This document shows positions 17,299-18,622 of a DNA stretch of 29,631 nt, one piece after another. The stretch spans positions 1 through 29,631 of IMG/VR virus record IMGVR_UViG_3300025127_000177; one strand, written 5' to 3'. The position numbers and the translations under genes were made by a program. The notes beneath the pieces are model-generated. The model saw only the letters and a list, made by a program, of their open reading frames with translations, was not told the origin of the DNA and searched no databases. The first letter of the stretch is position 1. Each line of letters starts with the position of its first letter. The stretch is from a virus.

Positions 17299-17320
17299 CC
17301 ATGCATGGAACGGGGCATGG
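17299..17320 (+). promoter_or_regulatory. small inverted repeat CCATGC/GCATGG
   Basis: CCATGC (17299-17304) and GCATGG (17315-17320) form a 6-bp stem with a 10-nt loop, in the 42-nt gap between two tiny genes. No T-run follows. It may be an RNA hairpin or a protein-binding site. Only the symmetry is seen. Confidence 0.35.
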
Positions 17321-17337
17321 ATTACTAGGTACTAATT

Positions 17338-17445
17338 ATGTCTATGAATCTCATTCGTTTTATCGCTAACCAGAAGAAGAAAGCACAACGCTACCAAAGC
17401 GATGCTCTGCGTTATCGAGGTGTAGTTTATAAAGAGATTGGCTGA
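17338..17445 (+). CDS. very small basic protein with YRGVVY motif
   Basis: A 35-aa product, MSMNLIRFIANQKKKAQRYQ then SDALRYRGVVYKEIG. A weak AGG lies 8 nt before the ATG. The N-terminus is hydrophobic then basic. The end LRYRGVVY recalls the short YRGxxY motif of cyanobacterial DUF4278 peptides, which hints at a host-derived or cyanophage-conserved peptide. The final codons overlap the first arm of the structured RNA that follows, so either the coding signal or the structure may be fortuitous. Confidence 0.5.
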   Translation: MSMNLIRFIANQKKKAQRYQSDALRYRGVVYKEIG

Positions 17446-17483
17446 GTAAAAGCTCACAGGGAGGTGCAAGTCCTCCCGTCAAT
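17437..17483 (+). ncRNA. three-way-junction RNA element in the capsid leader (tRNA-like shape)
   Basis: Three stems nest exactly. P1 is ATTGGC (17437-17442) with GTCAAT (17478-17483), 6 bp with one G-T. P2 is TGAG (17443-17446) with CTCA (17453-17456) and loop TAAAAG. P3 is GGGAGG (17459-17464) with CCTCCC (17472-17477) and loop TGCAAGT. P3 looks like a tRNA T-arm and P2 like a 4-bp D-arm, but there is no anticodon arm and no CCA, so it is not a working tRNA. It lies about 120 nt before the major capsid gene. A transcript-end stabiliser or processing signal is plausible inference. Confidence 0.45.
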
Positions 17484-17486
17484 ATT

Positions 17487-17525
17487 GGTAGAGCCGGTAC
17501 GCCGATACCTCTACCGTCGACGGTA
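17487..17525 (+). promoter_or_regulatory. 7-bp hairpin overlapping a 14-bp perfect palindrome
   Basis: GGTAGAG (17487-17493) pairs with CTCTACC (17509-17515). The perfect palindrome TACCGTCGACGGTA occupies 17512-17525 and shares TACC with the right arm of the first hairpin, so as RNA the two stems exclude each other. As DNA the palindrome could be an operator for a dimeric protein. No T-run follows, so it is not an obvious terminator. Confidence 0.5.
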
Positions 17526-17602
17526 AGAAAAGACCATAACATTTTCAACAAAAAATTTTGCTAGCAAGAAGAACAATAACAACTTAGATTTATTTTTTAA
17601 TA
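17526..17602 (+). promoter_or_regulatory. AT-rich leader of the major capsid gene without a Shine-Dalgarno
   Basis: The 77 nt before the capsid ATG are A/T-rich and look unstructured apart from the palindrome TTGCTAGCAA (17558-17567). Directly before the ATG is TTTATTTTTTAATA, with no purine ribosome site; AAGAAG lies more than 30 nt away. An S1-type pyrimidine/AU-rich initiation region would fit a highly expressed gene. A phage RNA polymerase promoter is expected somewhere here, but I could not define it. Confidence 0.4.
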
Positions 17603-18622
17603 ATGGCTAATACTACTATTACTCCAATTGGTTCGATTAACTCGAACCCGTCAACCATTGGGCTTACCCAGGGTGGCGCTAACTATGATGCCAAGTATGC
17701 AACTTACCTGAAGCTATTTTCTGGTGAGATGATCAAAGCTTACGAGTCTGCCTGTATCGCTAAAGGTACAGTTCAGTCACGTACTCTTCGTAATGGCAAG
17801 AGTCTTCAGTTCATCTACACAGGACGAATGGAAGCTGGATATCACACACCTGGCACACCGATCCTTGGATCTGGTGATCCTCCGGTGGCAGAGAAGACCA
17901 TCGTGATGGATGACCTGCTGGTCTCCAGTGCATTTTTGTACGATCTCGATGAGACACTTGCGCATTACTCCCTTAGGTCTGAAATCTCTGCAAAGATCGG
18001 TCATGCTCTGGCTGAAGCTTATGACAAGAAGATCTTCCGAATGATCGCTAAGGCTGCTCGTGAAGCACATCCTATTACTGCATCACCTGGTCCCGAACCC
18101 GGCGGTTCAGTCATCAGCCTCGGCTCAGGTAATGCGTACAACGCTCAAGCACTTGTAGACGCTTTCTTTGAAGCCGCTGCAATCCTCGATGAGAAGAACG
18201 TACCTACCTCTGGTCGTTTCGCCGTTCTGGCTCCACGTCAGTACTACGCTCTGATTTCTCAGGTTGACACAAACATACTTAACCGTGACTTCGGCGCCTC
18301 ACAGGGCAGCATGAACAGTGGTGAAGGTCTCTATGAGATCGCTGGTATCTCTATCCGTCGTTCTAACAACCTGCCTTTCCTTGCTGGTTCTGTTAGCCGT
18401 GTTGATGGTGAGAACAATGACTACTCTGGTGACTTCACTAATCACGCTGGTTTGATTTACATGCGTGATGCTGCTGCTGTTGTCGAAGGTATTGGACCTC
18501 AAGTACAAACAACAGGTGCTGATGTTAAGACCATGTACCAAGGTGATGTCATCGTTGGACGTCTTGCCATGGGTGCTGGCACACTTAACCCTGCTGCTGC
18601 TATCGAACTGCAAGCTGCCTGA
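17603..18622 (+). CDS. major capsid protein (T7 gp10A-like)
   Basis: A 339-aa HK97-fold shell protein, close to T7 gp10A (345). It shows AKYATYLKLFSGEMIKAYE (like T7 ALFLKVFGGEVLTAF), RNGKSLQFIYTGRMEAGYHT, the DDLLVSSAFLYDLDETLAHY segment (like the T7 GLLTADVLIYDIEDAMNHYD region) and the C-terminal VIVGRLAMGAGTLNPAAAIE (like T7 IIAKYAMGHGGLRPEAAG). It is followed after 21 nt by a small gene and then a strong terminator, as T7 gene 10 is followed by its terminator. There is no sign of a 10B-type frameshift extension. Confidence 0.96.
   Translation: MANTTITPIGSINSNPSTIGLTQGGANYDAKYATYLKLFSGEMIKAYESACIAKGTVQSRTLRNGKSLQFIYTGRMEAGYHTPGTPILGSGDPPVAEKTIVMDDLLVSSAFLYDLDETLAHYSLRSEISAKIGHALAEAYDKKIFRMIAKAAREAHPITASPGPEPGGSVISLGSGNAYNAQALVDAFFEAAAILDEKNVPTSGRFAVLAPRQYYALISQVDTNILNRDFGASQGSMNSGEGLYEIAGISIRRSNNLPFLAGSVSRVDGENNDYSGDFTNHAGLIYMRDAAAVVEGIGPQVQTTGADVKTMYQGDVIVGRLAMGAGTLNPAAAIELQAA

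Follow-up and report, generated by a model that had tools for sequence, protein, structure and literature searches.

tRNA-like structures, tRNA punctuation and phage RNAs that serve as RNase P substrates are already known. In animal mitochondria, tRNAs or tRNA-like sequences occupy the gaps between genes, and coliphage T7 carries regular processing places in its early-gene gaps and before its late genes, where long hairpins are cut by RNase III. Neither bacterial RNase P nor RNase Z needs more of a substrate than the acceptor/T-arm helix, and a stem-loop at the 5' end is a known kind of protection from 5'-dependent decay. RNase P processes tRNA-like viral RNAs, the phage M3 and C4 RNAs as well as mRNAs (PMC11143913), and cyanobacteria possess RNase P, RNase Z, RNase E and the 5'-3' exonuclease RNase J (PMC10989914).

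The locus described here lies in the leader of the major capsid protein gene on a 29.6-kb fragment of an ocean cyanobacterial virus (29,631 nucleotides, the whole stretch that was analysed and hereafter the window). It contains a single copy of a three-way junction, termed the tRNA-like structure (TLS), which is real, conserved and clearly tRNA-like, with a well-supported architecture, and which ends 119 nt upstream of the capsid start codon at 17603. The features of the region are as follows.

17300-17321, + strand: degenerate core resembling a Glutamine-II riboswitch, 5' of the small ORF (17.2 bits, below cut-off)
17339-17446, + strand: ORF of 35 codons (MSMNLIRFIANQKKKAQRYQSDALRYRGVVYKEIG), the TGA stop of which overlaps the TLS start (from sequence)
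17437-17483, + strand: TLS, three-way junction (folding, covariation)
17437-17442, + strand: P1, 5' strand of the acceptor-like stem, partner 17478-17483 (covariation, fold coordinates)
17443-17456, + strand: P2, hairpin at the D-arm position; the loop end A-G is equivalent to N18-G19 (covariation)
17459-17477, + strand: P3, the T-arm, 6-bp stem with loop TGCAAGT (U54 G55 C56 A57 A58 G59 U60)
17478-17483, + strand: P1, 3' strand, joined to the 3' strand of P3 to give the 12-nt ruler from the T-loop to position 73
17484-17488, + strand: 'discriminator' A73 followed by UUGG and not by CCA; RNase Z is predicted to cut after 17484
17487-17515, + strand: P4 stem-loop with a GCC...GATACC internal loop, which would be the 5'-terminal hairpin of a cut mRNA
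17514-17523, + strand: perfect palindrome CCGTCGACGG, the centre of which differs in relatives and stays palindromic
17603-18622, + strand: major capsid protein gene served by this leader (T7-like by DNA similarity)

In the window, P1 is formed by six base pairs (17437-17442/17478-17483), P2 by four Watson-Crick pairs plus a U.G pair, and P3 by six pairs (17459-17464/17472-17477) that close the loop TGCAAGT at 17465-17471; the bases CA at 17457-17458 are unpaired. The 47-base junction with stems of 6, 4 and 6 pairs and two free bases, as drawn in the first-pass annotation, is exact, with the U.G pair to be added to P2. The isolated 47-mer folds at -18 kcal/mol (z -3.1), and 1 of 200 shuffled sequences folded equally well. 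Folding of 17430-17530, which the same annotation had proposed as a check, gave a divided answer: the TLS pairing is available, but in free folding a competing pairing of P1 is more stable by 2.5 kcal/mol (-33.9 vs -31.4 kcal/mol with P1 and P3 enforced). Thermodynamics alone is therefore insufficient to establish the fold and comparative evidence is needed; both stems are present in the free minimum-energy fold of only 90 of 157 leaders.

For this comparison, a covariance model was seeded from 12 hand-picked relatives and searched against 86 sources, namely the window, 80 contigs retrieved via the capsid protein and five phage records. It gave 52 matches, nearly all of them on contigs fetched by their capsid protein and not by the RNA, every one on the gene strand and the majority directly upstream of the capsid gene. 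In the 37 distinct matches, pairing holds in 96% of cells, both sides have changed in 138 of 502 cells, double changes occur in 12 of the 15 pairs, and the observed covariation was reached by none of 500 shuffles. These figures lean upward, since the seeds had been picked because they pair cleanly and the second alignment was made by fitting to the model. Even so, the effect greatly exceeds that in the controls: sliding the partner column by one position lowers the paired cells to 56-58%. Compensatory change in all three stems, named beforehand as the supporting outcome, is thus seen in relatives. At least 119 IMG/VR contigs contain the exact 19-mer of the T-arm hairpin (estimated chance expectation below 1), and its flanking stems vary in step. 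Two other matches were set aside. Among bacterial and archaeal genomes, the sole exact 19-mer match lies in an Aminicenantes MAG (L400, 6785-6803), at the apparent start of a group II intron, and owing to this context it is taken as an unrelated coincidence of a common T-loop hairpin; the match in a Halogranum virus is an ordinary tRNA-Asn T-arm.

The likeness to tRNA extends from the T-arm to the whole geometry of the element. P3 keeps the T-arm consensus, with the closing pair G53-C61, U54, C56, R57, A58 and a loop of 7 nt; U55 is replaced by G in most copies, and others carry a canonical TTCRANY loop. The 3' strand is continuous, leading from the T-loop by way of the T stem to the acceptor-like stem. 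In 125 of 131 matches, 13-14 nt separate the T-loop from the N-TTG boundary, the combined length of acceptor stem, T stem and position 73 in tRNA; the 'discriminator' follows the T-loop at a distance of 12 nt in almost all copies, which equals the acceptor plus T ruler of tRNA. This ruler is constant although the split between the two stems differs (5+7, 6+6 or 7+5, with 6+6 in the window) and the linkers differ widely. Contiguous acceptor and T pairs numbering 11-12 were found in 170 of 188 elements, vs 42% when the 3' strand was taken from another element; the outermost pair (1-72) is often mismatched, which leaves 11 rather than 12 pairs in 79 of the 188.

The elbow provides the strongest single test of tRNA likeness. 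Where a P2 hairpin is present, a P2 loop that ends in AG goes with G55 in 48 distinct loop pairs and one that ends in GG goes with U55 in 8, with no crossed combinations; the association between N18 and N55 has a Fisher probability of 7e-10 when kinship is ignored, and the switch took place several separate times. Where the linker is plain and D-like (TGGTG or the like; n=21), GG and U55 are combined with the canonical UUCRANY loop, the one apparent exception being a P2 copy picked up by a loose pattern, and the S-CBP42 group, which has an extra hairpin, obeys the rule in the scorable cases. The D-loop/T-loop contacts 18-55 and 19-56 are in this manner visible through the covariation of N18 with N55, which we read as an exchange at 18-55 in which G18.U55 would stand for A18.G55 while G19-C56 would be retained. 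The hairpins that had been called T-arm-like and D-arm-like merit these names, given the kept T-loop consensus and the covarying contact. It is well supported that the TLS lacks a true anticodon arm and stacks an acceptor-like stem on a T-arm, with a short hairpin or linker providing the D-loop bases that dock into the T-loop. Automated searches recognise it as neither a tRNA nor a known family: ARAGORN found no tRNA in the window, and Rfam at gathering and permissive thresholds gave no family for the TLS in the window or its relatives, the tRNA model included. Nor is there a T7-type RNase III site, which would be an irregular duplex of about 20 bp; the longest stacked helix has 12 bp and carries the T-loop.

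The same place before the capsid gene, here called the slot, is occupied by several kinds of elements in relatives. An automatic census of 190 distinct capsid leaders assigned 115 to the tRNA-like form, 52 to a different hairpin and 3 to a complete tRNA, with 20 unclassified, about 10 of which by eye are slightly deviant tRNA-like copies and several incomplete contigs. The tRNA-like form is found in the isolates P-SSP7, P-SSP2, P-SSP3, S-SBP1, S-CBP3, S-CBP42, S-TIP37 and Syn5, and in some other cyanophages the slot holds shorter canonical tRNA-like structures. The complete tRNA genes comprise tRNA-Trp (L080, L365) and tRNA-Asp (L039), in addition to an annotated tRNA-Gly in isolate NATL1A-7; all are found by ARAGORN/Rfam and share nearly the same 3' boundary as the TLS. 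Because complete tRNA genes lie in the same slot of relatives, two ideas put forward in the first-pass annotation, a tRNA without its anticodon arm and a processing site, are favoured. The link to tRNA in its 'decayed tRNA' fits well, but 'decayed' is too weak a word, because the element is maintained by selection. The series from a full tRNA to a three-way junction within one slot favours descent or repeated exchange, as far as sequence comparison can suggest; for the TLS itself, descent from a tRNA and a separately built mimic both fit and cannot be told apart.

Roughly one capsid leader in four has the different hairpin, among them those of the isolates S-CBP1, S-CBP4, S-SRP01, S-RIP2, P-SSP10 and P-SCSP-R27W; the viral contigs that contain it number at least 120. 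Its ten covarying pairs enclose a 15-nt loop, CACCTCAGAGTCGGA, that hardly varies; N-TTGG follows, and it has no Rfam family. Sites include L020 1125, L050 2349 and the isolates in L521, L523, L525, L526, L529 and L531. Nearly all slot types end in N-TTG(G/C) and are followed by a stem-loop. A separate observation on the capsid gene is its apparent interruption near position 1377 of contig L392, by an insert that, judged by its core motifs, presumably resembles a group I intron.

Copies of the TLS are not confined to the capsid leader. P-SSP7 and S-SBP1 have two further copies each among the first (early) genes, and one copy precedes psbA in three phages. On a freshwater contig (L091, 480-1620), five small ORFs are separated by four copies, one per gap, in a stretch of some 900 nt, and downstream of each copy come an ATTGCC hairpin and a start codon; one copy, recognised by eye, has a divergent loop, ATCGAAT. 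Elements on the same strand at several gene junctions, as expected of punctuation, are therefore present in relatives.

Downstream of the element, P4 has an asymmetric internal loop (GCC...GAYAMC) of a sequence kept across phages, and its separation from the TLS in S-CBP42 indicates that it is a separate module. A hairpin begins within at most 3 free bases of the predicted start of the RNase Z product in 94% of 133 distinct leaders, vs 51% of shuffles. An encoded CC at that position is an anti-determinant for RNase Z. None of the scored TLS copies encodes CCA, which carries little weight because the copies were selected for T-rich positions 74-76. Perfect palindromes of 10-14 nt also follow P4 in relatives (CCGTCTAGACGG, CCGTCATGACGG, CCGTCGACGG, CCGTGCACGG, AACCGGTT and others), their count being a lead only, as it was made with a loose anchor that also caught unrelated stretches. 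A centre that changes and yet stays palindromic suggests a dyad function in the DNA or dimerisation of the RNA, and not a simple hairpin.

Taken together, we think it rather probable that the TLS is a tRNA-like punctuation mark at which host RNase P and/or RNase Z cut the phage transcript. This reading is preferred because the stems and the elbow covary, the ruler is fixed, tRNA genes have been exchanged into the slot and gene gaps are repeatedly occupied. We infer that recognition by the enzymes that mature tRNA is what unites the tRNAs, the stripped mimics and the constant downstream boundary. RNase P, on the 5' side, and/or RNase Z, on the 3' side after position 73, would recognise the acceptor/T-arm helix, and a cut would yield a capsid mRNA that begins with UUGG and bears the P4 stem-loop almost at its 5' end. 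Such a stem-loop should slow 5'-dependent decay, and the cut should uncouple capsid expression from the upstream genes; recognition, cleavage and stabilisation are all projected from the structure. A wider version, in which a working tRNA, a stripped mimic and the hairpin with the 15-nt loop are interchangeable, leading to the same cut and the same mRNA with a 5' hairpin, is offered tentatively, and we doubt it more than we believe it; in that case the hairpin would represent a processing signal of a new kind, or even a small self-cleaving RNA. As this hairpin, in which no clear resemblance to tRNA is seen, fills about a quarter of the leaders, the function shared by the slot may be other than tRNA recognition.

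One alternative, which we regard as unlikely, holds that the TLS is never cut and acts as a structural block or shield against 5'-to-3' decay by RNase J or entry of RNase E, in the manner of exonuclease-resistant RNAs. A compact three-way junction with a tertiary contact in capsid, psbA and early-gene leaders would suit such a role, and RNase J, a 5'-3' exonuclease, exists in cyanobacteria; a block gives no reason to expect real tRNA genes in this position, a ruler fixed at 12 nt or a constant N-TTG boundary, and 94% of the leaders already have a 5'-terminal stem-loop next. Very unlikely, in our view, is control through translation, by which ribosomes stopping at the upstream ORF within P1 would melt or form the TLS and so tune translation or processing of the capsid message, possibly under a glutamine riboswitch. 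Stop codons do lie inside P1 or P2 in the window, in relatives of P-SSP7 and in L091. Upstream of the slot, Glutamine-II matches in several relatives score 36-54 bits, above cut-off, whereas the search stretch in the window cut off the 5' end of the core (17.2 bits); the riboswitch and a tiny ORF (ending YRGVVYKEIG in the window) precede the TLS in many cyanopodoviruses, with riboswitch places at L147 684-737, L050 2148-2204 and L528 390-443. Against this stand the real tRNAs in the slot, which are left unexplained, and leaders with neither ORF nor riboswitch that keep the TLS (Syn5, S-CBP42 and freshwater phages). The concern that the overlapping ORF might be the sole cause of conservation, raised in the first-pass annotation, falls for a related reason, because the ORF covers 17339-17446 only and phages that lack it keep the structure.

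That these elements are functionless tRNA remnants or mobile tRNA targets, hitch-hiking in a variable region, we hold to be highly improbable. Full, partial and three-way-junction forms do resemble a decay series, and the slot is a place of module exchange, but strong compensatory change in the stems and the tertiary contact already contradicts this reading, as do the single orientation, the fixed boundary and the presence of several copies per genome. Hardly any credence is given to a ligand-binding leader, that is, a riboswitch whose UGCAA T-loop is like loop L4 of the cobalamin riboswitch. This loop and the leader position speak for it; the TLS has no Rfam riboswitch match at any threshold used, single strands resembling a conserved ligand pocket are absent, and the loop becomes the canonical UUCRANY together with its D-loop partner, so that a cobalamin-type T-loop riboswitch was set aside as a resemblance only.

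The open literature searched, from which most subscription journals are absent, gave no report of the TLS or of cyanophage tRNA-like leaders, and within the same scope none on the processing of phage mRNA by RNase P or RNase Z at such leaders or on the transcript ends there; a set of tRNA mimics lacking the anticodon arm, spread family-wide among cyanophages as probable gene punctuation, looks new. If punctuation by the TLS holds true, abundant viruses of ocean cyanobacteria would separate their gene messages with the tRNA-maturing enzymes of the host, the role that RNase III has in T7. The relatives would also provide many natural examples of minimal tRNA mimics whose elbow contacts co-vary, from which the requirements of RNase P and RNase Z could be learned, as well as a testable reason for small phages to keep tRNA genes: a tRNA in the slot may punctuate besides, or instead of, decoding.

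Among the described systems, phage M3 RNA and the C4 antisense RNA are substrates of host RNase P, and unlike the TLS they are not repeated elements in the leaders of capsid and early genes. Plant RNA viruses likewise mimic tRNA, by tRNA-like structures at their 3' ends, some of which RNase P can cut, but these structures end genomes and are aminoacylated, whereas the cyanophage elements are internal leaders without CCA. In mascRNA and menRNA (RF01684), a tRNA-like part of a long transcript is cut by RNase P and RNase Z and thereby sets an RNA end; these are nuclear RNAs of animals, have a small anticodon arm and define the 3' end, and their sequences are unrelated beyond the T-arm, the Syn5 element scoring 23.4 bits against a cut-off of 42.5 (E 0.94), far below threshold. 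With animal mitochondrial punctuation the TLS shares its position in gene gaps, the upstream stop codons that run into it and border cuts that would free mRNAs, but it belongs to lytic DNA phages of cyanobacteria, mostly lacks an anticodon arm and is here only presumed to be cut. The arrangement in early-gene gaps and before late genes is that of the T7 processing sites, with tRNA mimicry in the cyanophages where T7 employs its RNase III hairpins.
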